A DNA stretch of 45,563 nt, from NCBI GenBank assembly GCA_017302855.1, contig JAFLBY010000004.1, positions 1 through 45,563 on the forward strand. The letters are read 5' to 3'. This document shows, in pieces, positions 18,501 to 30,758 of this stretch. The translations under genes and the position numbers were made by a program. Positions within the stretch are counted from its first letter, which is position 1. Every line of letters starts with the position of its first letter. Under the pieces are notes generated by a model. That model did no database searches, was not told the DNA's origin, and saw nothing but the letters and a program-made list of their open reading frames with translations. This DNA is from Candidatus Kapaibacterium sp. GTDB taxonomy: Bacteria > Bacteroidota > Ignavibacteria > Kapaibacteriales > UBA961.

Positions 18501-19767
18501 TTTACAAGCAAAAAATGGTATTATTGAAGAATATGCCGATTTAACACGCAAGCAATTATCGTCTATTCAAAGAGATTTGGAAATCGCTGCAAAAATTCAA
18601 CATGCAATTTTACCTGACTGGAAAGAAACCTTCCATAATCAAGCCGTACAATTTACCTTAGCCGCCGAAATGGTTGCTGCTAAAGATGTGGGCGGTGATT
18701 TCTATGACTTTTTCCGTATTGATCATCGCAGAGTCGGATTTGTTATAGCGGATGTTTCCGGCAAAGGTATGCCCGCAGCTTTATTTATGGCAGTAAGTCG
18801 CACTATGCTCAAAAGTCAGGCATCATTAGGCGGCAAACCCGGTGATGCTATGGCAATAGTCAATGATTTATTATGCCGCGAAAATGTTTCCACGCTTTTT
18901 GTCACCGTGTTTTATTGTATCCTCGATGAGGAAACCGGAGAAGTATTTTTCAGTAATGGAGGACATAATTTACCATATATTATTCGTAAAAACGGCACGG
19001 TAGAAATAGTAGAAAAAACTCGAGGCATGGGCTTGGCTATTATGGATGAAATGGAGTTCCAAACCTCCAAACTTACTCTTAATAATGGCGATATGCTCTA
19101 TCTTTACACCGATGGTGTGACCGAAGCCATGAATAAAAATGATGAATTATATTCTGATGAACGATTAGCGCAATTTTTAGCAAGTATGGACCATTCATTG
19201 TCCGTCGAAGAACAGATGAAAAATGTTTTTGCTGATGTGAAACGACATGCGGACGGAGCAGCTCAATCCGATGATATTACAATGTTATTGTTGCGCTTCG
19301 ATGGGCAGAATGCAATCGAGCCCGCTGCTATTGCCAACGATATACCTGCTTTGGCTTTGCAACTCATCAATAAAAAAATGGAAATTTCTCGTATCAATGC
19401 TCAAGTCGAAGCATTTTTCGATGAATTTTCCGTCCCGATGAAAACCGCGTTCCAAACCGACTTGATTTTGGATGAAATTCTCACCAATATCATTACTCAC
19501 GGCTATCCTCAAGGCGGAGAACACTCTATTGATTTGAAGCTTAGTATTGACAATAGTGCGCGTACCGTAACAATTACCGTAGCTGATGGCGGCACCCCCT
19601 TTGACCCCACAACAATTGCCGAAGCGGATACAACATCCGATTTAGAAGAAAGAGCAATCGGGGGACTTGGCATTCACTTTGTCAAACAAATATCTCAGAC
19701 AATGGAATATAATTACAGTAACAATAAAAACATATTGACTATTGTGTTACCGTTCCGTGATGAATAA
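15556..19767 (+). CDS. Membrane sensor with beta-propeller, GAF-like, SpoIIE phosphatase and RsbW-like ATPase domains
   Basis: This 1403-residue protein starts with a signal peptide (residues 1-22, ending LAHSAEQ). A periplasmic part of two-component-regulator propeller repeats follows (for example GVWVALNEGISRINA, GNVWIATSMKGIIRCK, GKAWLGTAEGIIVYDG), then a Y_Y_Y domain (about 685-750, YRYKLEGFDNVWSSW). One membrane span lies at about 755-778. Cytoplasmic parts are a coiled coil (about 780-830), a GAF-like domain (about 835-975), a PP2C/SpoIIE phosphatase (about 1010-1250, with KDVGGDFYDF, IADVSGKGMPAALFM and QSDDITMLLL) and a HATPase domain (about 1290-1400, DEILTNIITHGY, GGLGIHFVKQ). It should sense an extracellular signal and control a partner-switching pathway. 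Having phosphatase and RsbW-like ATPase in one chain is unusual. No anti-sigma antagonist gene lies next to it. The cNMP-binding gene follows 63 bases later. Confidence 0.92.
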   Translation: MIIRLIVLIFPLWFMVSTLAHSAEQGTPLLRNFFPKEYKAHVQNFAVVQDKRGFMLFANTNGVLSYDGAHWRIIETKNNSIPRSLAVGADGKVYVGTRGDFGMLIANSKGTLEYKSLLSNSTSHPTFLDIHSILPTDKAVYFIADNTVFQWSNNQLSHRSFKQELGKSFALGNKIYTNVTDSGLKVIDNMQLRSIPQSRFFSQKTAIVSMLNYDKNRILIATKNDGLFLMSNDAEPQGFAVELKSFFLDNRISSMTRLPDGSFAIGTMRSGIVHISSQGQRLAIIDRKHGLLHENVNDIVADNQQGVWVALNEGISRINAPSAFSRYGEPEGLYGGVNDIAQWNGTYYVATQRGVFRKSGAMFLPVKDSVACTALLTTERNVLAATTEGIFSISGNNTITAIASGYGLSLGYSQRYKDMAYCGLLDGVAVLRFINGTWKEIARIEGVRDECRIVHEDNQGNVWIATSMKGIIRCKADDLYAGIMNNYTRLGLQHGLQSLISNTISIINGKVRLTTISEPGIKRFDETQQKFIVDKELQSKTKQGKDSLLWLNSIVQAKDGSVWAAEGDAKKIRRYTLTAQGLQPVLPQFAPISEYSITAILAENQGKAWLGTAEGIIVYDGMAKTISTIPFSCFIRSAFYGADSLMYGGAYYSADGTPFSTLIKNIPTPQLPYNRNTLTFEFSAPAFNFEDRTLYRYKLEGFDNVWSSWNTTTKKEYTNLPDGSFTFIVEAKNVYGTIGKTAEFPFTIQKPWFRQWWAYILYVVSSGSIVVIVFRWRLRKSHKEKEQLERIINERTQEIQVQKEEIEKKSGELEGKNEELAKINGIVKSINTEIDLDRLLTSILERILIFKGVHRGIAYVRIGETEEFAVRASIGWNTDELQEITVLPFAVINERYIELCEELYEDVFYSGTQDELETAPRIGNATSAIAVMTVPVNRVVEGIVIFEGNIKTRGFESRLLGLLHNLKEHIIAAFIKSKILSDLQAKNGIIEEYADLTRKQLSSIQRDLEIAAKIQHAILPDWKETFHNQAVQFTLAAEMVAAKDVGGDFYDFFRIDHRRVGFVIADVSGKGMPAALFMAVSRTMLKSQASLGGKPGDAMAIVNDLLCRENVSTLFVTVFYCILDEETGEVFFSNGGHNLPYIIRKNGTVEIVEKTRGMGLAIMDEMEFQTSKLTLNNGDMLYLYTDGVTEAMNKNDELYSDERLAQFLASMDHSLSVEEQMKNVFADVKRHADGAAQSDDITMLLLRFDGQNAIEPAAIANDIPALALQLINKKMEISRINAQVEAFFDEFSVPMKTAFQTDLILDEILTNIITHGYPQGGEHSIDLKLSIDNSARTVTITVADGGTPFDPTTIAEADTTSDLEERAIGGLGIHFVKQISQTMEYNYSNNKNILTIVLPFRDE

Positions 19768-19830
19768 TGTTCGTGACAATAAATTAGGTGTCTTTCATTA
19801 GGAGACTCCAATATACACTTATCGGATACG

Positions 19831-20490
19831 GTGAATATAATGCCGCTTACTCTATGGGATATTTTGGCTCACAGCTATAATTTATTATATCTGACTGCAT
19901 TTATTGTAAAAGATATGTTATGGCTTCGTATATTATTATGCCTTGCATCCGTGATGGAAGTGATATATAGTTACAATGTGGGCACTGACCCGCTTTGGCC
20001 CAATATTCTATGGTGTTCGGCGTATGTGGGAGTGAATACCTATCAATTTTTTCGTATAATACAAGAAAGGCGGTCTCTCAATTTATCGGAAGAAGAACAT
20101 ATAATGTATGCCGCTATGTTCAGCACCATGAGCAAAGTATTATTTCGACGATTGATAAATATTGGTGAATGGCGAACATATAGCATAGACGAAAATTTAA
20201 TTGAAGAAGGCAATACATGTAAAGAGTTATTGTTATTAACTCAGGGCGCAGCATCTGTGGAAAAAAAAGGCATAGAAATTACCCGATTGCGTAGTTATGC
20301 TTTTGTTGGCGAAATGAGTTTTTTAAGCGGCAAAGAAACTACAGCAACGGTGAAAGCATTGACCCCTGTTTTGTGTATGGTATGGAAAAAAGAGACTCTT
20401 GAAGCATTAATCAATAAAGACAATGAATTACATATAGCCATTCATACCGTTTTTTCCCGCGATTTAACTCAAAAATTATCTGTTCAATAA
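19831..20490 (+). CDS. Popeye-like membrane protein with cyclic-nucleotide-binding domain
   Basis: The first possible start is GTG 19831 (219 residues). ATG 19840 would shorten it by three. Three membrane segments occupy about residues 10-70 (NLLYLTAFIVKDMLWLRILL, then VMEVIYSYNVG, then PNILWCSAYVGVNTYQFF), followed by the Popeye-type junction IIQERRSLNLSEEE. Residues about 110-215 form a cNMP-binding fold (GEWRTYSIDENLIEEGN, LLLLTQGAASV, AFVGEMSFLSGKETTATVKA), where GEMSFL corresponds to the phosphate-binding cassette region. Bacterial Popeye-like proteins are poorly known. A role as a membrane cAMP or cGMP sensor is inferred. It follows the SpoIIE sensor on the same strand and may share its operon. 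Confidence 0.8.
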   Translation: MNIMPLTLWDILAHSYNLLYLTAFIVKDMLWLRILLCLASVMEVIYSYNVGTDPLWPNILWCSAYVGVNTYQFFRIIQERRSLNLSEEEHIMYAAMFSTMSKVLFRRLINIGEWRTYSIDENLIEEGNTCKELLLLTQGAASVEKKGIEITRLRSYAFVGEMSFLSGKETTATVKALTPVLCMVWKKETLEALINKDNELHIAIHTVFSRDLTQKLSVQ

Positions 20491-20611
20491 AAAATACAAC
20501 TATGTGATTGTGACAGAAAGTAGATGAGCCGCTAACACTCGTCACTCCTTCCACACCACTACTTTTTGTAGAACAATACTTGGCAACAATATATAAACCT
20601 GAAGGACTATG

Positions 20612-20643
20612 TTTGGATGGATACACAAAGTTTTGTAGTTTTG
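20612..20643 (+). promoter_or_regulatory. Bacteroidota-type promoter P1 (TTTG-N20-TAGTTTTG)
   Basis: TTTG 20612-20615 and TAGTTTTG 20636-20643 with a 20-base spacer match the -33/-7 consensus. The first of five similar sites in the accessory segments. It lies in the 296-bp gap before the gene at 20787, which also holds the shared word CTCAGTGGTTACATCAAG at 20691. Confidence 0.6.
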
Positions 20644-20786
20644 GGGAAACAAGTTGTGCAACAAGCACAGGCCTTTGGCTCAATGGCGGGCTCAGTGGTT
20701 ACATCAAGTTTTCTTCATCTAATGAAGTTTAGTGCGATGAATCCCCGCCATCGCAAAGCCACATACATTATAGGAAAGATTAAAAA

Positions 20787-21407
20787 ATGAATAGCATAAG
20801 AGAAAAAAAAGATCAAATAGTAAATTTTTGGAGCATTGATGAAGAATCAGACCGTGAAAAACTGATTGAAGAAATAAGGAATTACTCTGAGATAAAAACT
20901 GAAGCTGTATTAGTGCAAGAAATAAGAGATAATTTCAAACAAACAAGTTCTTCAGGAATAAGTGTGATTTATGAGGCGTTAAGTAAGAACCCCAAAAAAT
21001 GGTCGAATTTCTTTAAAGAAGAATATGAAACTGCTTTTGAATCAGCGAAAAAATCTGAGAAAGCTTTTGAAATTTTGGAAAGTTTACAGGGAATAAGTTT
21101 TGTTAAAGAAGGGGAATTGGAAACGTTAGACGAAATAATAAGTCTATTAGGAAATAACCTTTCACACCAAAACAAAGTCATTAGATATAACTCTGTTTGG
21201 TATTTAGGAGATTGGATTTCAGATAAAAACAAAGACAAATATTCTCATATAATTGACAAAATAATTGATAGACTTCAAGATGAAAATTGGAAAATCAGAT
21301 ATATAACAAAGTTGATACTTGACGACCTGAATAAATTACCGAAAGACTATACAATCAATCTTTGGGATAAAATTAGAATTAAGTTTGGAAATCCATTTAC
21401 AATATAA
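20787..21407 (+). CDS. Small HEAT-repeat-like hypothetical protein
   Basis: This 206-residue, lysine- and glutamate-rich protein is predicted to be nearly all helical. The segment NKVIRYNSVWYLGDWI and the segment LQDENWKIRYITKLILDDLN resemble HEAT repeats, so it may bind another protein. It has no signal peptide, membrane span or enzyme motif. An AGGAAAG stretch about 10 bases upstream of ATG may be a ribosome binding site. It is the first gene of the accessory segment, preceded by promoter P1 about 150 bases upstream. HEAT-like small proteins are often immunity or scaffold proteins, but nothing here proves that. Confidence 0.72.
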   Translation: MNSIREKKDQIVNFWSIDEESDREKLIEEIRNYSEIKTEAVLVQEIRDNFKQTSSSGISVIYEALSKNPKKWSNFFKEEYETAFESAKKSEKAFEILESLQGISFVKEGELETLDEIISLLGNNLSHQNKVIRYNSVWYLGDWISDKNKDKYSHIIDKIIDRLQDENWKIRYITKLILDDLNKLPKDYTINLWDKIRIKFGNPFTI

Positions 21408-21609
21408 AAAAACTACCACCAACCGTTCAATGACGGATGTACTGGTTTATTGAACACCTACATCGCATCAACTTTTGTGCTATATTGATAGTTTAGTGCT
21501 TCGAATTGACAATCAGCGAAGCTCAATCGCCAACTGCGGTAGTCTTGAACTGTTAGTAACAAGGCATAACAAACCCACAACACGACAAAGGGAAAAGAAT
21601 GACACTATT

Positions 21610-21702
21610 CGTATCATAATCAAACTTAAACGTATCAAATCGTATCATTACGCTCTTGCAGTTTCGAATCATAACCGTATCTTTGCATATCAAATCGTAT
21701 CA
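21610..21702. promoter_or_regulatory. Phased CGTATCA operator array before the first Fic gene
   Basis: CGTATCA occurs at 21610, 21631, 21641 and 21696, with variants CGTATCT at 21676 and CATATCA at 21686. The pairs 21631/21641 and 21686/21696 are each spaced 10 bases, one helical turn, and share the 17-mer pattern CRTATCAAATCGTATCA. The two pairs flank the promoter core. Confidence 0.55.
21655..21685 (+). promoter_or_regulatory. Promoter of the first Fic gene (CTTG-N19-TATCTTTG)
   Basis: TATCTTTG at 21678-21685 fits the TAnnTTTG -7 box, with CTTG at 21655-21658 as -33 box. The ATG at 21705 follows after 19 bases, giving a very short leader. The CGTATCA boxes flank it, so a bound repressor would cover the promoter. 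Confidence 0.5.
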
Positions 21703-21704
21703 AA

Positions 21705-22745
21705 ATGAACAATAAAGTATATAATTTTCGACTAAAGATTGATTGGAAGCTGATTAATGTTATCAGTGCAATAGACCGCTTTGATGCACATTGGACTGCT
21801 ATTGAACGCAAAGAAGGACAAAGCCTCAAAGAGTTGAAAAGCATTGCTACAGTGCGAAGTGTAGGAGCTTCAAATCGCATTGAGGGCAACAAAATGAGTG
21901 ATGAAGAAGTTGATGTGTTGCTGCAAAAAATTGACATTACCAAGCTTACTGACAGAGATTCGCAAGAAGTAGTCGGATATTATGAGGTGTTGGATTTGAT
22001 TTCGGAGTCTTACCACAATATCACATTGACCGAAAGCCATATCAAAAGTTTACACAATAATGTAATGAAATATAGTGCCAAAGACCAATGGCATAAAGGA
22101 AATTATAAGTCGCATAGTAATGCAGTTGAAGCAGCATTTCCTGACGGCACACGACAAAGAATCTTTCAAACCACAGAAGCGGGATTTGCCACCGAAAATG
22201 CCATAAGACAGTTGGTTGATTGGTATAATTCCGAAACAGAAGTACACACATTAATCAAAATAGCATCATTTGTCTATGATTTTTTAAGTATTCACCCGTT
22301 TCAAGACGGAAACGGTAGGTTAAGTCGTTTGATTTCAACACTATTATTACTTAAAAACGGATATACATGGATACAATATGTCAGTTTTGAGCATGAAATA
22401 GAAAATCGAAAAAACGAATATTATCAGGTTCTCAGAAGTTGTCAGGCGCAACATCCAAATGAAGATATTACTGTTTGGATTGAATTCTTTTTGAGTTGCT
22501 TATTAAATATCCAATCGCAACTTATGACAAAATTGCAAAAAAATGGTTCGGAAACACAAATTTCGCATAAGGAAAAATTAATTTTTACCATCATTCAAAA
22601 TCGTCCAAATATTCAGTCAGGAGAAATTTCGGAAAAACTGGCGATACCATTACCTACCGTTAAACGCATTTTGTCAGAGTTGACTAAAAAAGGACTAATT
22701 GAAAAACAAGGTAATGGACGGAATGTGAGTTATACGATACAATAA
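21705..22745 (+). CDS. Fic-family AMP-transferase with N-terminal inhibitory motif and winged helix
   Basis: This 346-residue protein carries the complete catalytic loop HPFQDGNGRLSR (near residue 196) of Fic enzymes, which attach AMP or related groups to target proteins. SNRIEGN near residue 56 fits the self-inhibiting [S/T]xxxE[G/N] motif of class II Fic proteins, so it is probably autoinhibited and needs no separate antitoxin. The last 70 residues form a winged-helix DNA-binding domain (GEISEKLAIPLPTVKRILSE then GLIEKQGNGRNVSYTI). That domain suggests autoregulation, and the phased CGTATCA boxes directly upstream are the likely target (inference). No Shine-Dalgarno is seen; the ATG follows CAAA. 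It is in the accessory segment, between the HEAT-like and OLD genes. Confidence 0.92.
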   Translation: MNNKVYNFRLKIDWKLINVISAIDRFDAHWTAIERKEGQSLKELKSIATVRSVGASNRIEGNKMSDEEVDVLLQKIDITKLTDRDSQEVVGYYEVLDLISESYHNITLTESHIKSLHNNVMKYSAKDQWHKGNYKSHSNAVEAAFPDGTRQRIFQTTEAGFATENAIRQLVDWYNSETEVHTLIKIASFVYDFLSIHPFQDGNGRLSRLISTLLLLKNGYTWIQYVSFEHEIENRKNEYYQVLRSCQAQHPNEDITVWIEFFLSCLLNIQSQLMTKLQKNGSETQISHKEKLIFTIIQNRPNIQSGEISEKLAIPLPTVKRILSELTKKGLIEKQGNGRNVSYTIQ

Positions 22746-22813
22746 AGATTGGACTTCATCATACTTGTGACCTACAACATGAGAAATTTCACTGCCACGG
22801 GCAGGGATAACTT

Positions 22814-22848
22814 TTCCACAACTCATCGGTAATTTTTTAGAAAAATGA
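22814..22848. repeat. Copy A of a recurring intergenic element (CCACAACTCATCGGTAATTT)
   Basis: TTCCACAACTCATCGGTAAT followed by TTTTTAGAAAAATGAG. Related copies lie at 29146-29179 and 39791-39830. CTCAT/ATGAG can pair across an AT-rich loop. Confidence 0.7.
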
Positions 22849-22869
22849 GCGGTATGGGATATAAACTTG

Positions 22870-22901
22870 TTTGCTTACATAAGCAAAGTTTTGTAGTTTT
22901 G
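22870..22901 (+). promoter_or_regulatory. Promoter P2 with internal palindrome
   Basis: TTTG 22870-22873, 20-base spacer, TAGTTTTG 22894-22901. The spacer forms, together with the -33 box, the inverted repeat TTTGCTTA-CA-TAAGCAAA (22870-22887), a likely repressor site. The sequence from here to about 22920 is nearly the same as at P3 (26444). Confidence 0.65.
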
Positions 22902-22979
22902 AGGAAATGAATGGTGCCTTGTGGCAATACAGGAGTTACCTGCAAGTGTATTGAACGACGCGAATAACATCAAACAATT

Positions 22980-24689
22980 ATGAAACTTATTGGCTTTAGT
23001 GCTAAAAATTATAGGTCAATTTCGGCTGCTTACAAACTTCCTTTGGCAGACTATACTGTTATAGTTGGTCCAAACAATGAAGGTAAAAGCAATATTTTAA
23101 AAGGACTTGGACTTGCCTTGACATTATTGACGGGTAGCAAACAACAAAGATTTAGACGTCCAAGCGTAATCTCATATTCAAATAGAGGAATTGAAAGATT
23201 TGACTATGATTGGGAAAGAGACTACCCAATAAATTTACAAGCAACGGAACTTGAAGGTCGTTCAGAATTTACTTGCGAATTTGAATTAACAGAAGAAGAA
23301 CTTAGTGAATTTAAGACAAAAGTAAAAGTCAACTTAAATAGTGTTTTAAAAGCAAAAATTTCAATCGGAAAAAATGATGTGAAATACGACTTCTTAATGA
23401 AAGGTAGAGGTAAGGAATCTTTGAACAATAAAAGAGTTGAAATTTCTCAATTCGTTAACGACAAGCTTCTACTACAGTATATTCCAGCTATTAGAACTTC
23501 AGACCTTGCTATAAATATTGTAGAGAGTTTGTTAGAAAGAGAACTTTCAACACTTGAAGACAATCCAGAATTTCAAGAAGTTGTAAAAGTAATTACCAAG
23601 TTACAACAACCAATAATAAAAAAAATTGCAAAGAGTTTAAAGGAATCCATTTCGGGTTTCATCCCAGACGTAAAAAATATTTCCATAAAAAACCGTGAAA
23701 ACGTTGGTAGATTAATTAGTTCAGCTTGTAGAGTATATGTTGATGATGGGATTGAAACAGATTTGCAATTTAAAGGAGACGGAGTAATTAGTTTGACTGC
23801 AATTTCACTGTTACAACATTTCAGTAAACAAGGTTCTTTAAACAAAGGACTAGTTTTGCTGCTTGAAGAACCTGAAAGTCATTTACATCCCAAAGCTATA
23901 CACAATCTAAAAAAAGTGCTATTGGAGATATCAAAAACTAATCAAGTAATTCTCACAACACATTCACCAATTATTATTGAACGACTTCAAGTAAAACATA
24001 ATGTGATAGTTCAAAATGGTAAGGCAATTCCTGCCAACAATGTAAATGAAATTCGTCAATCCCTTGGAATTACTATGTCAGATAATTTAGCAAGTGCCTA
24101 TCTTGTTTTGTTAGTGGAGGGCGAAGAGGATATAATTTTATTAAAACCTTGGCTGGAAGAAAAGTCGGCAAAAATTAAATCCGCTTTTGCAAATGCTACT
24201 TTAATTATAGACCATTTGGGCGGTGCTACAAATGTCGGTTACAAAACTTCACTTTACAAAAACAATCTTTGTAACGTTGTAGCATATCTTGACAATGACG
24301 AAGCGGGAAGAAAAGGTATTACCGATGCAGAAACAAAGGGAATTTTAAAACCAAACGAATATATATTATCCTCTTGTAGAGGAATGCAGAATAGTGAGTT
24401 TGAAGATTTAATTGACTTAAATTCATATAGACAACTTATTATAGACGACTATGCAGTTGATTTAAATATTCCATCATTCAAAGTCAACACAAAGCAGTGG
24501 TCAGACAGAGTTAAGGAACTATTCAGGTTACACGGTAAAATATGGAGTGATAGACTTGAAAGTGAAATAAAATACAAGGTATCAAAACAAGCTGCTTCTC
24601 TAAAATTAGAATCACTAAATCCAAATAAGACCCATACAATTGACGCACTTGTTACAACAATTGAGAATGTATTGGACAGACAAAAATAA
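22980..24689 (+). CDS. OLD-family ATP-dependent endonuclease (class 1 type, AAA + TOPRIM)
   Basis: This 569-residue protein has an ABC-type ATPase split by a helical insert: Walker A GPNNEGKSN (30-38), FKGDGVISLTAISLL (signature region near 260), Walker B LLLEEPESHLHP (about 291-302) and the H-loop TTHSPIII. A TOPRIM nuclease follows (LLVEGEEDIILL near 377, AYLDNDEAG near 436, SSCRGMQNSEFEDLI near 463). This is the order of OLD nucleases, known from phage P2 exclusion of other phages. No UvrD-like helicase gene lies next to it, so it is not a normal Gabija pair. It sits between Fic genes, with its own promoter P2, no Shine-Dalgarno, and a conserved GTTACCTGCAAG leader word. A role in phage defence is likely but inferred. 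Confidence 0.9.
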   Translation: MKLIGFSAKNYRSISAAYKLPLADYTVIVGPNNEGKSNILKGLGLALTLLTGSKQQRFRRPSVISYSNRGIERFDYDWERDYPINLQATELEGRSEFTCEFELTEEELSEFKTKVKVNLNSVLKAKISIGKNDVKYDFLMKGRGKESLNNKRVEISQFVNDKLLLQYIPAIRTSDLAINIVESLLERELSTLEDNPEFQEVVKVITKLQQPIIKKIAKSLKESISGFIPDVKNISIKNRENVGRLISSACRVYVDDGIETDLQFKGDGVISLTAISLLQHFSKQGSLNKGLVLLLEEPESHLHPKAIHNLKKVLLEISKTNQVILTTHSPIIIERLQVKHNVIVQNGKAIPANNVNEIRQSLGITMSDNLASAYLVLLVEGEEDIILLKPWLEEKSAKIKSAFANATLIIDHLGGATNVGYKTSLYKNNLCNVVAYLDNDEAGRKGITDAETKGILKPNEYILSSCRGMQNSEFEDLIDLNSYRQLIIDDYAVDLNIPSFKVNTKQWSDRVKELFRLHGKIWSDRLESEIKYKVSKQAASLKLESLNPNKTHTIDALVTTIENVLDRQK

Positions 24690-24834
24690 AACATCTACAG
24701 GTAACAAGGTATTGCCAAAAGCGGGGCTGAACGGCTTCGATTGGACATTTGTTCTAAATTCAGCATCCGTTCTTCGTTTTATCTTTTGTGCTAAAAATCC
24801 GCCACCGCCTCTCGTGTAATCTTATGACAACAGT

Positions 24835-25284
24835 ATGAATAAGAAATCAATACCAGGTTGGACAATAAATATTAACGAAATTTCAAATGGCGTCTTTAAA
24901 GTGACGTTGTCAGATGCTTATGGACGTAAAGCTGAAATCATAGACAATGCAACAGACGAAACAATTGAAAAAGCAATTGGTGACGCATTTGACATTGAAA
25001 AACAAATATCAAAGAATTGGAATTTATTTCTTTATGACCTTGCTGTTCAAAAACTAGAGGATAATGAAATTGAAAACAAAGAATTCAATGACAAAGTGTT
25101 TGGTTCTTGGTATATCGAAAGACAAGACAAGCGTTTGGTTTATGATGGGAAAGAATCTTGGCTAATATTTCAGAAGAAATCCAAAGGCGAATGGGCAGAC
25201 ATTGAAACAATTAAAAAGGATGATTTGAAATATTCGAATTTCGTTGGACAAATAAACAACATAATAGAAAAGCAATATTTGTAA
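24835..25284 (+). CDS. Small hypothetical protein upstream of the second Fic gene
   Basis: This 149-residue acidic, soluble protein has no signal peptide or membrane segment. An N-terminal beta hairpin-like part (GWTININEISNGVFKVTLSD) is followed by a helical region and an alpha/beta C-terminus (ESWLIFQKKSKGEWADIETI). The family is not recognised. It ends 7 bases before the ATG of the second Fic gene, so both are likely co-transcribed. In toxin loci a small upstream gene is often an antitoxin or immunity protein, but this is only a positional guess, because the Fic protein already has a built-in antitoxin-like segment. No Shine-Dalgarno is visible. Confidence 0.75.
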   Translation: MNKKSIPGWTININEISNGVFKVTLSDAYGRKAEIIDNATDETIEKAIGDAFDIEKQISKNWNLFLYDLAVQKLEDNEIENKEFNDKVFGSWYIERQDKRLVYDGKESWLIFQKKSKGEWADIETIKKDDLKYSNFVGQINNIIEKQYL

Positions 25285-25291
25285 AAAAATA

Positions 25292-26320
25292 ATGGAAAAT
25301 TTTGATGAATATTTAAGACAAGGTGAACCAAACAAAGCAGAGAAAGCAAAAGTTTGGAAAACAGCTATCGGCTTGCAACAAGTGGATGGCTTAAAACCAT
25401 CTGAATACCTCATTCATACTGCGAAACAAAACATCGAAGGTGAGATAACTTTTGACGAAGTAAAAAAACGCATTGATAGTTACTATCAACAACACCCAAC
25501 CAAAACTAATGAAGACCGCACCGAAGAAGCCGACAAAGTTTCGGCACGAATTGCTGAAATGTTGGGTGAGCAAACCTTTACGTTTTCACCTGCAGAATAC
25601 TTGTCCATTCATCGTAGATTATTTACAGGTATGTATAAATTCGCAGGAAAAATTCGTAATTTCAATATCACAAAAAAGGAATGGGTATTAAATGGCGAAA
25701 CGGTTCTTTATGCGAGTGCCGAAAGTTTGAAAGTAACATTGGAATATGATTTTGAGCAAGAAAGAAAATTTAGTTATAAAGGATTAAGCGAAACGGAAAT
25801 TATAGAACACTTAGCACACTTTATTTCTAATTTGTGGCAAATCCATGTTTTTGGCGAAGGTAATACACGAGCAACCGCTGTGTTTTTAATTAAATATTTA
25901 CGAAAATTAGGGTTTAAGAACGTAAATAACGACTTGTTTGCCGACCACTCTTGGTATTTCCGTAATGCTCTTGTAAGAGCCAATTACGAAGACATTTCAA
26001 GAAGTATTCACAGAACAGAAAAGTATTTGATTCGCTTTCTTTCAAACTTATTGCTCAAAGGGGACTATGTGCTCAAAAACCGCGAAATGCATATTCTTGC
26101 TGATACTGTATATGACACTGTAAAACAACCGGATGACACTGTAAATGACACTGTATTTTCATTGATCAAGCAAAACAATAGTATAACGGCTAATGAAATC
26201 GGTGAACGCCTGAATATGAGTTTAAGTACCGTAAGACGGAAAATCAAAAGACTTAGAGAACATGGAAACATTGAACGTATTGGTAGTGATAAAACAGGGA
26301 ATTGGAGAATAATAGAGTAA
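25292..26320 (+). CDS. Fic-family protein with fused VbhA-like antitoxin segment and C-terminal winged helix
   Basis: This 342-residue protein has an N-terminal helical segment (VDGLKPSEYLIHTAKQNIEG, then EITFDEVKKRIDSYY) resembling the VbhA antitoxin motif. The Fic core carries the variant active-site loop IHVFGEGNTRATA (about residues 184-196), where the usual final arginine of HPFxxGNGRxxR is missing and Pro is replaced by Val. The last 60 residues are a winged helix (ITANEIGERLNMSLSTVRRK). Just before it lies an odd repetitive linker DTVYDTVKQPDDTVNDTVF. The variant loop is common in one Fic branch; whether it transfers AMP, another group, or nothing cannot be told. The gene has no Shine-Dalgarno and follows the 149-aa gene by 7 bases. 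Confidence 0.9.
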   Translation: MENFDEYLRQGEPNKAEKAKVWKTAIGLQQVDGLKPSEYLIHTAKQNIEGEITFDEVKKRIDSYYQQHPTKTNEDRTEEADKVSARIAEMLGEQTFTFSPAEYLSIHRRLFTGMYKFAGKIRNFNITKKEWVLNGETVLYASAESLKVTLEYDFEQERKFSYKGLSETEIIEHLAHFISNLWQIHVFGEGNTRATAVFLIKYLRKLGFKNVNNDLFADHSWYFRNALVRANYEDISRSIHRTEKYLIRFLSNLLLKGDYVLKNREMHILADTVYDTVKQPDDTVNDTVFSLIKQNNSITANEIGERLNMSLSTVRRKIKRLREHGNIERIGSDKTGNWRIIE

Positions 26321-26363
26321 AGAAGTTATGTAATGTCACAATAAAGTAACATAACAGACAAAA

Positions 26364-26401
26364 CCGCCCATTATCACGGTTTTTGCAACGGGCGGGGTGA
26401 T
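26364..26401 (+). other. Possible pseudoknot in the cassette junction
   Basis: CCGCCC (26364-26369) pairs with GGGCGG (26390-26395), and ATCAC (26373-26377) pairs with GTGAT (26397-26401), in interleaved order. It may instead form AAAACCG/CGGTTTT followed by T, a weak terminator for the Fic gene. Confidence 0.3.
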
Positions 26402-26443
26402 ATGCAAAATTCAACAGTAGTTTTTCCCTCACCTCCGCTCAAG

Positions 26444-26475
26444 TTTGCTTACATAAGCAAAGTTTTGTAGTTTTG
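26444..26475 (+). promoter_or_regulatory. Promoter P3, near twin of P2
   Basis: TTTG 26444-26447, 20-base spacer, TAGTTTTG 26468-26475, with the same TTTGCTTA-CA-TAAGCAAA palindrome as P2. Similarity continues through AATGAATGG and TTTGTG downstream. Confidence 0.65.
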
Positions 26476-26627
26476 TGGCAATGAATGGCGCTTTGTGTTA
26501 AGATGGGAAGCGTACATCTATAGATTTGCAAAAGTACTTCATTGACAAACTGCATTTGCATTCAGTAACTGAGTAAATCTGCTGACCGTTACCAGCAAGC
26601 ATATATAACGACACGAATCAATTACAA

Positions 26628-27215
26628 ATGACAATTGACGACAAAATAAACGACTTTAAAAAGCATCTTCCAATATTGGACGAGACAGCACTTGTAAGAA
26701 AATTTATTACATCGGGTGACAGTTATGTTGTTGACCAAGACAACTATTTAGATTTGAAAGCAACAATAGCTGACCATTTTGAAATACATCCTAACGAAGT
26801 ATTAATTGTAGGTTCAGGAAAATTAGGATTTTCAATCGCAGAAAACCTTGCCAAAGAAAAACCACGATACCGACACTTTAGCGAGAGTTCAGACATTGAT
26901 GTGGCACTCATTTCACAGGGACTATTCGACAAGATTTGGAAAGACTTATATAACTATATCGAAGACAAGAATTATTGGCAAAAACAACAAGAGTTTACAA
27001 CTTATCATTTCACAGGTTGGATGAGACCTGATATGCTTCCCAATTCACCTCGATTTAACTTCACACAAACGATTTGGTGGGACTTTTTCAATAACCTAAC
27101 TTCATCCCAGAAGTATGGTGATTATAAAATTAGGGGTGGCTTATATCGGAATTGGCATTTTCTTGAAAGGTATCAAGTAAAATGTGTTAGACAATGTAAA
27201 CTCGAATTAAAATAA
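26628..27215 (+). CDS. Nucleotidyltransferase-like protein paired with the DUF262 protein
   Basis: This 195-residue soluble protein contains VGSGKLGFS (about residues 61-69) and SSDIDVALI (about 87-95). Together these resemble the GS...DxD signature of the polymerase-beta nucleotidyltransferase fold: a glycine-serine turn followed by two acidic metal ligands 20-30 residues later. The C-terminal part is aromatic (FTGWMRPDML, TQTIWWDFFN, GGLYRNWHFLERYQ). It ends 5 bases before the ATG of the DUF262 gene, so they form a two-gene operon under promoter P3. No Shine-Dalgarno is seen. The exact substrate is unknown. Defence-associated nucleotidyltransferases modify RNA or proteins or make cyclic nucleotides, but a CD-NTase cannot be claimed from this short chain. 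Confidence 0.78.
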   Translation: MTIDDKINDFKKHLPILDETALVRKFITSGDSYVVDQDNYLDLKATIADHFEIHPNEVLIVGSGKLGFSIAENLAKEKPRYRHFSESSDIDVALISQGLFDKIWKDLYNYIEDKNYWQKQQEFTTYHFTGWMRPDMLPNSPRFNFTQTIWWDFFNNLTSSQKYGDYKIRGGLYRNWHFLERYQVKCVRQCKLELK

Positions 27216-27220
27216 AGACG

Positions 27221-28216
27221 ATGAAAACTTCAGGAACAAACATAAGGCTTAGAAAAATTCTCTCAGGTTTAAAAGCAGGGTCATTGATACCAAGACCAGA
27301 CTTCCAACGGAGACTAGTGTGGGCTAACAAACACAAAGTAGCATTCATTCAAACGGTTTTAGATGAATTGCCATTCCCTGAAATTTATATTGCAGCAGGA
27401 GAAGTAAATCTCGAAAGTGGAGAAGGTAAAGAGATATTGGTTGATGGTCAGCAAAGAATAACTACTCTATACCAGTACTTCATTGGCTCAGAAGACTTAA
27501 AATATGAGAATGGCTTGATACCATATACGAAACTTGAGCCAGGTCAACAAGAAGCATTTCTTGAATACGAAGTAGTGGTTAGAGATTTAGGAAAGTTAGA
27601 TATTGAAACTATCAAGACAGTATTTCAAAGAATCAACTCCACAAACTATTCATTGAATGCAATTGAAATACATAATTCAAGATATGACGGAGAAATTAAA
27701 AGACTTGCAGACGCAATTTCAGAACTTGAATTTTTCGAAAATCATAGAGTCTTTACAAATAATGACATCAAACGTATGAGAGACCTAGGTTTTTCTCTTG
27801 TAGTCATTATAACTTTATTGAGCACCTACTTTAACCTCGAAGATGAATTTGAAGAATACTTACAAAGATTTAATGATGAGTTCTCTCAAAAAGAAGAAAT
27901 CGAATATCAAATTAAATATTTACTTGACTTAATTGATAATTTAAACTTTGATGAAAAATCAAGAGTTTTTAAAAAGTCAGACTTATTTACACTAATAGTA
28001 GAGTTGCATCGAACAATATTTAGAGAAAATAAGAAAATTGACCAATCCAAACTTGAATCAGAATTGAAGAGTTTTTATCAAGCAGTCGAAGACAAAGTTC
28101 AGGAACCAATATTTCAAGACTACTCAAAGGCAGTATTACAAGGGACAAATAATCGAAGTGGACGTATTATGAGAGGTAAGATAATTTACTCAATAATAAA
28201 CTCTTGTATAATTTAA
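27221..28216 (+). CDS. DUF262 (GmrS-N / ParB-like) protein
   Basis: This 331-residue protein shows the DUF262 landmarks: IPRPDFQRRLVWANKHKVAF near residue 23 and the nucleotide-binding or nuclease core ILVDGQQRITTLYQYF near 75, followed by FQRINSTNYSLNAIEIHNSR near 130. In GmrSD-type modification-dependent enzymes this domain is fused or paired with a DUF1524 HNH nuclease. Here the protein ends without such a nuclease and is coupled to a nucleotidyltransferase-like gene instead. The C-terminal half is helical. It is likely a DNA- or nucleotide-sensing defence component (family-level inference). A short AT-rich spacer and no clear Shine-Dalgarno suggest translational coupling to the upstream gene. 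Confidence 0.87.
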   Translation: MKTSGTNIRLRKILSGLKAGSLIPRPDFQRRLVWANKHKVAFIQTVLDELPFPEIYIAAGEVNLESGEGKEILVDGQQRITTLYQYFIGSEDLKYENGLIPYTKLEPGQQEAFLEYEVVVRDLGKLDIETIKTVFQRINSTNYSLNAIEIHNSRYDGEIKRLADAISELEFFENHRVFTNNDIKRMRDLGFSLVVIITLLSTYFNLEDEFEEYLQRFNDEFSQKEEIEYQIKYLLDLIDNLNFDEKSRVFKKSDLFTLIVELHRTIFRENKKIDQSKLESELKSFYQAVEDKVQEPIFQDYSKAVLQGTNNRSGRIMRGKIIYSIINSCII

Positions 28217-28285
28217 TATTGAGGACTTTTGTAAACGACCAGAATAGAATGCCAGTCGCTAACAGCACCTACCCAAAAGTGGTGA

Positions 28286-28303
28286 CTCAGTGGTTACATC
28301 AAG
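28286..28303. repeat. Shared intergenic word CTCAGTGGTTACATCAAG, copy 2
   Basis: Exact 18-base match to 20691-20708, in both cases inside the intergenic leader of an accessory gene, close to a CGCTAACA word (20533 and 28257). Confidence 0.75.
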
Positions 28304-28401
28304 CTTTGTGGTAAAAGTCCCGCCCTTCGGGTAGCTGCCAAACATTGGGGGTCATTGTGAAAGACGATACCGAAATAAATAAACGAACAGTTAATTAAGA
28401 A

Positions 28402-29124
28402 ATGCCATTTACATTTTCACACCCAGCAATAGTTTTACCATTGACATTTTTGCCTCGACCATGGTTTTCCTTGACCGGTCTTGTAATCGGCAGTTTAACA
28501 CCTGACTTTGAATATTTTTTAAGAATGAGAATTAAAAGCAATTACAGCCATACAATTGACGGGCTTTTTTGGTTCGACCTGCCACTTGGACTCCTACTTG
28601 CGTTTTTATTTCACAACATTGTTCGTGACAGACTATTCGACAACTTACCGACATTTTTAAAATCAAGATTTTCGATTTTTAGGCAGTTTGATTGGAACAG
28701 TTACTTCAAACATAATTGGTTAGTGGTGACAATTTCAATTTTAATCGGAGCAGCTTCGCACATTTTTTGGGATAGTTTTACTCACGAACACGGTTATTTC
28801 GTTCAGACAATTCCTGAATTGCAAAACTCTGTTGGTTTTTTTGGCAGACAAATTCCAATTTTAAAAATACTTCAACATTCTTCGACTTTACTAGGTGGAC
28901 TTGTAATTGCTTTTGCCATTTATAGACTTCCGACAGACAAGACTGTAAATGAAAATGTAAGTTTGAAATACTGGGCAATTTTAGTAGGACTAACATTAAC
29001 AATTATTTCGGTAAGACTTGTAAGCGGACTTGACTTCAAACAATACGGGGACGTAATTGTGACAGCTATTTCCGCAGGACTAATTTCATTAATAATAACA
29101 TCATGGCTGACAAGGGCGAAATAA
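28402..29124 (+). CDS. DUF4184 family membrane protein
   Basis: This 240-residue protein begins with the family signature MPFTFSHPAIVLPL and continues with LVIGSLTPDFEYFL. Later it shows GAASHIFWDSFTHEHGYFV, a His/Asp-rich motif typical of DUF4184 and reminiscent of metal-dependent membrane hydrolases. About five hydrophobic segments are visible (residues 60-75, 110-128, 155-175, 188-205 and 218-235). The function is unknown; family members are widespread and often mobile. It closes the first accessory stretch and is followed by a copy of the CCACAGCTCATCGTAATTT element and then by backbone genes on the other strand. Confidence 0.88.
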   Translation: MPFTFSHPAIVLPLTFLPRPWFSLTGLVIGSLTPDFEYFLRMRIKSNYSHTIDGLFWFDLPLGLLLAFLFHNIVRDRLFDNLPTFLKSRFSIFRQFDWNSYFKHNWLVVTISILIGAASHIFWDSFTHEHGYFVQTIPELQNSVGFFGRQIPILKILQHSSTLLGGLVIAFAIYRLPTDKTVNENVSLKYWAILVGLTLTIISVRLVSGLDFKQYGDVIVTAISAGLISLIITSWLTRAK

Positions 29125-29145
29125 AACCCCCACCCCCTATCCCTA

Positions 29146-29179
29146 CCTCTTCCACAGCTCATCGTAATTTTTAGACGAT
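29146..29179. repeat. Copy B of the recurring CCACAACTCATCGGTAA element, at an island edge
   Basis: CTTCCACAGCTCATCGTAAT continues with TTTTAGACGAT. It lies between the last accessory gene and the converging backbone gene ending at 29253. ATCGT/ACGAT can form a small stem. Confidence 0.65.
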
Positions 29180-29252
29180 ATTATTGCTTGTACTGTCTAT
29201 GATTGGGCGGTCGAAGGACATATTCCCTCCTTATATCATTTTTTTTCTTTTT

Positions 29253-30758
29253 TCACAGATAGGGATTTTTCTTTTGTTTTTTCTTTTGGACAAATTTCGG
29301 TTTCCATAGACGAAGCACACTCAAAAGAAAAGGATCGGCTTCCGTATTATTGCTGTGTTGCTCGATGAATCCGCTGACAAGACTATGCCGTGCATGAGGG
29401 GAATGTGCTTCCGCAATATGACGCAATAATTTGAGAAAATGACGATGAAATTCGGTGACAGGCAAAAATTTTGATTTAGAACGTGTAAATGAACGAATGC
29501 CATAGTCAAGATATGCTTCCCCACCGGTATCCAGATGCGCACATAATGATAATAATTCGGCAGAACGATGGGCATCGCTACGGATATGTGCATCAGATGA
29601 AAGTGTGCGCTGAAACCATTCAAGTGCAAGTCGAGGATTGCCGGACACAAGACACATTGCCCCACATTCCATCGTCAGTAATTTTTGATAAATCGGCGGG
29701 AAAAAATGCTGATATGTCTGATAGAGTTTAGTATATTCGGGTATATTTTCCGCAAAACGCTCCATATTTTCCGATACCATATCATACGTTATTTCGGTGC
29801 GAAGAAATAACATGGCGGCACGTGCTTTTTGATAGGCATTCAGATTTTTTTGCTGCATACTGTCACGCAATAAATAAATATTATTTTCATAAAGTTCATA
29901 GTGTTTGTGCAGACAGTAATATGACAGCATGGTTGTCAATGTACCAATATATAATCCAAAATATTGTTCTTTGCGAATGGGGTTTTCTTCAAATTTCTTT
30001 ACTATTATTTCGCTTATTTCGCGTGATTTTTCTTGATTTTTTTCGATATACTGATAATGCGATGTTTGAATAAACATTGAAGAAAGCCATGCAGTAAATG
30101 ATAAAGGTTGTACCGTGCTCATCAATGGATGGGATAATATATCTGCGGAGTACTGTTCTTTTGCATGCGTGGTAATACCTTGCGCCACAAGTGAATCTTC
30201 AATACGCAAATTATAGATCCAATACAAATATTCATTATAGACTTTTTCGGAAGCACTTTCTAATTCATTGATAATACTCTCCGAAAGTTCACCATAATGT
30301 TTATCGCTGACAAAATGCGATATGACCAATAAATAATAGGTGAGTGCATCAAGATATAAACGATTATGCTCAATCTCGCGAGCCATTTCCACTGCTTTTT
30401 TGACAATTTTTTCTGCATGGGTATATAATCCGCGTTCGGATAATAAACGCACATCATAGAGAGCATCTTGAATGACTTGCGCCTGATTTTTCCCGCTATG
30501 GTATGAGCGCAATGATTCCATGATTTGCTTGTATAAATAATTCTTAATTCCGGGTAATCGTTGTGCCATTGTTTTGATACTGTTTTTTTTCACAAGAGCA
30601 TCATCGCTATATGATTCCAGAGAATCAATGGCTTCGAATAATGTCATATAATCATTGCCTTCGCCAATAATATGACGGGCTGAGTATTTTTTGAAGTATC
30701 CCTTCTCCGATGGACTCATCGAACGAATCAGTTCATGAATTTGCTGACCTACACTCAT
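29253..30758 (-). CDS. Large helical (TPR-like) protein of unknown function
   Basis: The ATG at 30758 (501 residues) is chosen over one 33 bases upstream because AAAGGA lies 8 bases before it. The N-terminus reads MSVGQQIHELIRSMSPSEKG. The whole chain is predicted alpha-helical with TPR-like pairs (LYTHAEKIVKKAVEMAREIE, HNRLYLDALTYYLLVISHF, NPRLALEWFQRTLSSDAHIR). The C-terminus is strongly basic (VQKKKQKKNPYL). No signal peptide or enzyme motif is present. The protein is probably a cytoplasmic scaffold. It is transcribed away from the T9SS Asp-box gene at 30952 across about 190 bases, in a backbone stretch between two accessory segments. Confidence 0.82.
   Translation of the reverse strand: MSVGQQIHELIRSMSPSEKGYFKKYSARHIIGEGNDYMTLFEAIDSLESYSDDALVKKNSIKTMAQRLPGIKNYLYKQIMESLRSYHSGKNQAQVIQDALYDVRLLSERGLYTHAEKIVKKAVEMAREIEHNRLYLDALTYYLLVISHFVSDKHYGELSESIINELESASEKVYNEYLYWIYNLRIEDSLVAQGITTHAKEQYSADILSHPLMSTVQPLSFTAWLSSMFIQTSHYQYIEKNQEKSREISEIIVKKFEENPIRKEQYFGLYIGTLTTMLSYYCLHKHYELYENNIYLLRDSMQQKNLNAYQKARAAMLFLRTEITYDMVSENMERFAENIPEYTKLYQTYQHFFPPIYQKLLTMECGAMCLVSGNPRLALEWFQRTLSSDAHIRSDAHRSAELLSLCAHLDTGGEAYLDYGIRSFTRSKSKFLPVTEFHRHFLKLLRHIAEAHSPHARHSLVSGFIEQHSNNTEADPFLLSVLRLWKPKFVQKKKQKKNPYL

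Follow-up and report, generated by a model that had tools for sequence, protein, structure and literature searches.

DUF262 is a common domain that in GmrSD, BrxU and SspE acts as an NTPase sensor and not as the toxin, the nuclease of these systems being DUF1524 (PMC10952713). DUF1524 is also the nuclease of TgvB and GrwA, which belong to the two-gene, DUF262-based systems TgvAB and GrwAB of Vibrio cholerae; GrwAB requires both of its proteins (PMC12137116, PMC12409362). DUF262 is found without DUF1524 in Menshen, Dazbog and PD-T4-2, with an OLD-type nuclease in the case of Menshen (PMC10952713). The first-pass annotation of the locus described here stated that DUF262 normally works with DUF1524. 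This is true of GmrSD-type systems and is too narrow as a general statement, given Menshen, Dazbog and PD-T4-2 and the HEPN pairs and HNH fusions seen in this analysis. Five Bacteroidota genomes (L113, L114, L115, L118 and L120) carried a short sister DUF262 gene followed by a HEPN_RiboL-PSP-like gene, a second recurring DUF262 gene pair. Several of these HEPN_RiboL-PSP matches were below the Pfam cut-off, with a HEPN-like RN...H visible by eye, and the match in L118 was significant (3.7e-14). An EcoRI-type adenine methyltransferase gene was directly followed by a DUF262 gene at L121:401-2493, L125:410-2496, L122 and L126, which is a restriction-modification-like arrangement. The DUF262 protein of L121, the one scanned, was fused to HNH.

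The locus lies in a window of 45,563 nucleotides (the whole stretch of DNA that was analysed) from Candidatus Kapaibacterium sp. and consists of the following two genes:

26628..27215, + strand, gene of a nucleotidyltransferase (NTase)-like protein, upstream member of the pair (ORF of 195 amino acids)
27221..28216, + strand, gene of a DUF262 protein (GmrSD_N, ParB/Srx-type NTPase), downstream member of the pair (ORF of 331 amino acids)

The ORF listing agreed with the annotated positions of both genes, which are on the same strand and 5 bases apart. The annotated single promoter is putative; a consensus search gave promoter matches at about chance level. Purifying selection acts on both genes, with dN/dS values of 0.066 and 0.084 between the window and L064, and of 0.02-0.12 in most informative pairs. 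DNA similarity to the closest relatives was limited to the two genes (79% to L064), and the flanking genes differed.

The window NTase had no match to any Pfam or NCBIfam family, and its best match in PADLOC v2.0.0 was insignificant (E=0.013). An AlphaFold2 model was obtained with a pLDDT of 95.6. Since Foldseek found no significant match of this model in the PDB or among viral models, the identity of the protein was judged from motif and profile evidence. The following motifs were conserved in a family of 80 sequences:

26811..26816, + strand, codons of G62-S63, start of the GS-x-KLGFS motif (80/80)
26892..26900, + strand, codons of D89-I90-D91, the predicted metal-binding DxD, aligned with SDID of minimal NTases (D89 and D91, 80/80)
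27015..27041, + strand, codons of residues 130-138, GWMRPDMLP, a family-specific motif (D135, 76/80; P138, 77/80)

Six residues of the family were invariant (G62, S63, L66, F84, D89 and D91), and K65-L66-G67-F68-S69 and G130-W-x-R-P-D135-x-x-P138 were almost invariant. The hGS...[DE]xD core motif of the polymerase-beta superfamily was present in all 80 sequences, and judging by sequence D89/D91 and G62-S63 are its polymerase-beta-type GS...DxD. A profile-profile comparison with minimal nucleotidyltransferases aligned GS...SDID at P=3.8e-4 and a probability of 36%; two unrelated controls compared with the NTase gave P=0.65 and 0.69. One relative (L074) matched PF01909 (NTP_transf_2) at E=0.007. 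The annotated small nucleotidyltransferase-fold partner was thus supported as an NTase-type protein by the motif and the profile alignment. The assignment is good for the core motif, and the fold and the third catalytic acid are predicted, with D135 as the candidate for this acidic residue. Catalysis by the NTase is uncertain because the third acid is a candidate and the model gave no significant NTase fold match.

The second protein was confirmed as a DUF262/GmrSD_N protein by a match of residues 12-155 to Pfam PF03235 (E=3.8e-20). The QR, DGQQR and FxxxN motifs, as defined for DUF262 (PMC12137116), were all present:

27305..27310, + strand, codons of Q29-R30, QR motif (conserved in 79/80)
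27443..27457, + strand, codons of D75-G76-Q77-Q78-R79, DGQQR nucleotide-binding motif (D, G, second Q and R, 80/80; first Q, 74/80)
27623..27637, + strand, codons of F135-x-x-x-N139, FxxxN motif (F and N, 80/80)

The PADLOC model of NsnA (PDLC03877) matched the protein over most of its length (E=1.9e-29), and the fold of the DUF262 model matched BrxU (E=5.9e-4) and the ParB-type protein Noc. Neither DUF1524 nor HNH was found in either protein of the pair or in the scanned neighbours, and the DUF262 protein showed no other nuclease domain.

The pairing was examined by scanning about 85,000 species genomes with the NTase alignment and NTase motifs only (I[TV]GS[GAS]KLGF and GW[MI]RPD). The scan returned 80 loci, and at 76 of them a same-strand DUF262 gene follows directly downstream; the other four were L035, where the contig ends, L077, L082 and L080. 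With three earlier loci (on a Cronobacter plasmid, on a Bacteroidota chromosome between copies of a transposase unit and in an E. coli prophage), a total of 79 pairs was obtained. The gap between the genes was -29 to +12 nt in 76 of the 79, the three outliers having a truncated or split gene call. Nine phyla were represented: Pseudomonadota (31 pairs), Bacteroidota (23), Cyanobacteriota (12), Bacillota (3), Actinomycetota (3) and four phyla with one pair each. The protein distance matrices of NTase and DUF262 were correlated (r=0.92), and none of 999 permutations was as high or exceeded 0.22. Rare co-occurrence, which would have spoken against the annotated pairing, was therefore not what was found. 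The association is far above chance, and NTase and DUF262 form a real, conserved two-gene unit.

The unit can also be recognized from the DUF262 side. A DUF262 profile derived from the pairs found two proteins below 1e-100 in 296 Bacteroidota genomes, both of them with the NTase, and the next best match was at 5e-47. In the same genomes, the NTase profile found those two loci and one NTase without an adjacent DUF262. The pair is thus rare (about 1% of the 296 genomes) yet sharply defined. A scan of viral contigs with three NTases gave 106 pattern matches with no relative among them, and tblastn of the NTase against phage records gave no match. At L009 (4103-10066, G198 chromosome), the pair is flanked by two apparently identical two-gene integrase/transposase units and resembles a composite transposon.

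NTase relatives of 219-265 amino acids without DUF262 were seen at L077:7857-8633, L082:7923-8720, L080 and L008:5935-6594. The relative in L077 adjoins a SIR2-type short-Argonaute pair, the one in L082 lies between HmaB and HmaC, the one in L080 is in an apparent phage-type region and the one in L008 adjoins a DUF4365-TPR protein. Members of this family may work in more than one defence system.

The pair was compared with described systems. The window DUF262 shares the QR, DGQQR and FxxxN motifs and the BrxU fold match with the GmrSD/BrxU/SspE group, but the pair is without DUF1524 or HNH and the partner is an NTase encoded upstream. TgvAB and GrwAB were rejected as the same system, since both of their proteins carry DUF262, one of them with DUF1524, and neither is an NTase. 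Menshen (NsnA/NsnB/NsnC) was considered because the best PADLOC match of the window DUF262 is NsnA and an OLD-type ATPase is present in the island. Menshen likewise does without DUF1524, but there the DUF262 partner is an OLD-type nuclease, in contrast to the fixed NTase partner in the window. NsnB and NsnC are not adjacent to the window pair, whose adjoining genes encode Fic and DUF4184 proteins. Membership in Menshen was rejected, as the OLD-type ATPase does not accompany the pair and is encoded three genes upstream of the NTase; among the relatives, too, the neighbouring genes do not recur. PD-T4-2 and Dazbog are also DUF262 systems without DUF1524 (PMC10952713), and the window DUF262 matches PD-T4-2_A partially (residues 19-87 in the best stretch). 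In this comparison, which was made via PADLOC models, the Dazbog and PD-T4-2 partner models had no NTase match at E<=0.1 for the window or E<=1 for the relatives.

The NTase side of the pair was compared in the same way. HEPN-MNT (type VII toxin-antitoxin) systems also have a small NTase with GS...DxD beside a partner gene, but the partner here is DUF262 and not HEPN (Rx4-6H), and the NTase is larger (195 amino acids) with KLGFS and GWxRPDxLP motifs of its own. MenAT and AbiE provide a precedent for an NTase as a toxic, tRNA-modifying effector (PMC10435456, PMC11541572); they differ in that no sequence match to the window NTase was found and in that the partner is not an AbiEi or MenA antitoxin. 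For CBASS, the window pair lacked both a significant CD-NTase match and a CBASS effector.

Relatives of the pair were found in some contexts of defence type. The pair of E. coli 1500 (NZ_CP040269.1, 3286-4880) lies between the replication gene gpA and the portal gene (gpQ) of a P2-like prophage, an interval that is a hotspot of anti-phage systems in P2 (PMC9122126). The pair is present in 1 of 5,426 complete E. coli genomes. In seven loci (L071, L074, L081, L083, L087, L088 and L091), a C5 DNA methyltransferase gene ends at most 14 nt from the NTase start. These methyltransferase-linked loci are essentially one Bacteroidota-rich clade of 7, plus a few others, and the clade of the window is separate. 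The DUF262 protein in six of the seven is about 500 amino acids long with a C-terminal tail of about 115 amino acids. The tail of L074, the one tested, shared 44% identity (E=6e-27) with the N-terminal domain of the MvaI/BcnI restriction enzyme of L081, where this enzyme is a separate gene after DUF262. The tail domain had no Pfam or PDB match and was identified solely through the L081 enzyme. Among the methyltransferases, those of about 740-750 amino acids (L071, L074, L081, L088 and L091) have an extra N-terminal part of about 100 amino acids that by eye resembles an integrase arm-type DNA-binding domain. L087 (Sphingobacterium sp. SGG-5) additionally encodes Vsr and L084 encodes an HhH-GPD glycosylase, both of which commonly accompany cytosine methylation. 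Two C5 methyltransferases are downstream in L078, and L055 and L056 each have one convergent C5 methyltransferase.

This sub-clade resembles type II restriction-modification with a C5 methyltransferase and MvaI/BcnI in having the methyltransferase and, in DUF262, the N-terminal domain of the enzyme. It differs in that the DUF262 fusion of the six loci showed no MvaI/BcnI catalytic domain and the NTase-DUF262 pair stands in the place of the enzyme. The window pair has no cognate DNA methyltransferase in its operon, and since its own clade is without the methyltransferase, the restriction-modification label does not apply to it. By raw counts, the nearest neighbours overall included C5 methyltransferases in 5 of 132, with 2 N6/N4 methylases and 2 Mrr domains, which is suggestive of a link to defence. 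Immediate neighbours outside the methyltransferase clade were mixed, with modest defence content.

The Fic/OLD-rich surroundings of the window pair were as annotated, with two Fic proteins and the OLD-type ATPase upstream. The latter is an AAA ATPase (22980-24689) with a weak TOPRIM match, and the gene downstream of the pair encodes a DUF4184 protein. The nearer Fic protein (25292-26320) has a C-terminal winged helix and matched the PADLOC candidate single-gene system PDC-S72 (E=2.6e-142). A protein with a cyclic-nucleotide-binding domain is encoded at 19831-20490, and its matches to Pycsar/TIR effector models were confined to that domain. The genes from 19600 to 29300 all have the same orientation, with related intergenic repeats between them (e.g. 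at 20611, 22869 and 26443; 20691 and 28286). These repeats also lie between small same-strand genes on contigs C13 and C24 of the genome (L151 and L152). Those next to the pair are:

26438..26591, + strand, intergenic repeat upstream of the pair (82% over 134 nt to C13; 79% over 141 nt to C24)
28253..28310, + strand, intergenic repeat downstream of the pair (84% over 58 nt to C13; 95% over 22 nt to 20691-20712)

Several repeats start with GCTAACA and are attC-like in layout. The region has the look of a cassette array, either of the integron type or without an integrase. No IntI was found above the cut-off and no canonical attC core pairs were found, and the integron reading is therefore a side note only. 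If the array is real, the pair would be one cassette, as no repeat separates the two genes; the NTase-DUF262 pair may thus be one cassette of an integron-like array in this genome.

DUF262 looks like a sensor or switch with exchangeable effectors (DUF1524, OLD, HEPN and HNH), which argues for placing the NTase in the effector slot. Our preferred model is therefore that NTase-DUF262 is a mobile, two-protein module of defence type with DUF262 as the sensor/switch and the NTase as the effector, a reading that we favour tentatively and at somewhat less than an even chance. DUF262, as a ParB/Srx-type NTPase, would probably recognize foreign DNA or a DNA state, and the NTase would occupy the effector position held by HNH nucleases, OLD nucleases or HEPN proteins in other DUF262 systems. 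Sensing would lead to NTP hydrolysis by DUF262 and to release or activation of the NTase. The activated NTase may then add nucleotides to host tRNA, to a host or phage protein or to phage DNA ends, and phage replication would stop. A more specific version is possible but doubtful, namely a restriction-like immunity in which the DUF262 NTPase would read DNA and activate the NTase, whose nucleotide transfer would then block either phage or host. In one clade, the reading would be done through a domain shared with a restriction enzyme, and a C5 methyltransferase would protect self. Phage defence, DNA sensing, direct interaction of the two proteins, the identity of the effector and the NTase substrate are parts of these models that we infer.

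The roles of the two proteins could instead be reversed, as in a toxin-antitoxin or abortive infection system in which DUF262 (or its NTPase state) would be toxic and the upstream NTase would be an antitoxin that nucleotidylates it. This model is the main rival and is unlikely overall; the gene order and the precedent of the MNTs speak for it. The NTase gene comes first, as an antitoxin gene would, and the genes overlap; the core motif aligns with MNTs; and the antitoxins of HEPN-MNT modify their partner by AMPylating HEPN toxins (PMC11586414). DUF262 is also paired with HEPN-type proteins, which puts the DUF262 and MNT families in one partner network. However, the known role of DUF262 in GmrSD, BrxU and SspE is that of the sensor (PMC10952713), and the NTase homologues found in other defence loci that have no DUF262 (L077, L082 and L008) would be needless for a dedicated antitoxin. 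It is less probable again that the pair is a restriction enzyme of a new type, in which DUF262 with its helical C-terminal half would nick or cut DNA and the NTase would regulate it or modify DNA ends, as a type II/IV module. The operons with a C5 methyltransferase and the fusion of DUF262 to a domain derived from MvaI/BcnI would fit such an enzyme, as would the reported DNA-nicking ParB/Srx proteins cited in PMC12839542, but no nuclease motif was recognized in either protein. A complete MvaI/BcnI enzyme adjoins the pair in L081, so the pair cannot simply be equated with the nuclease of that locus.

A module unrelated to defence, associated with mobile elements or stress and merely sharing hotspots and cassettes, would explain the mixed neighbours outside the methyltransferase clade and the varied cargo of the cassette-like array in the window. 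We regard it as improbable in view of the P2 gpA-gpQ hotspot position and the methyltransferase operons, and the best-described DUF262 systems are all defence systems. Signalling similar to CBASS, with the NTase making a nucleotide signal and DUF262 serving as receptor and effector, is very improbable. DUF262 does have a nucleotide pocket, and the DxD region of two relatives weakly matched CD-NTase models (E=0.0018 and 0.0054). However, these matches span only about 40-50 residues and are insignificant, and the NTase has about 200 amino acids compared to the 295 and 388 positions of the PADLOC CD-NTase models.

The NTase-DUF262 pair very probably represents a so far undescribed bacterial defence system of two parts, defence being the part that would follow from its contexts and from DUF262. 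No earlier description of the pair was found in the open-access literature or in PADLOC v2.0.0, and no published system in these sources covers it. The suggestion that the system is undescribed is upheld within these sources, and the suggested anti-phage or toxin-antitoxin role is a candidate reading. DUF262-based immunity was already known, and what would be new is the fixed NTase partner. This partner, kept across nine phyla, makes the pair a directly testable case of what DUF262 does without DUF1524. If the NTase is the effector, sensing of the restriction type would be coupled to nucleotide transfer and not to DNA cutting.
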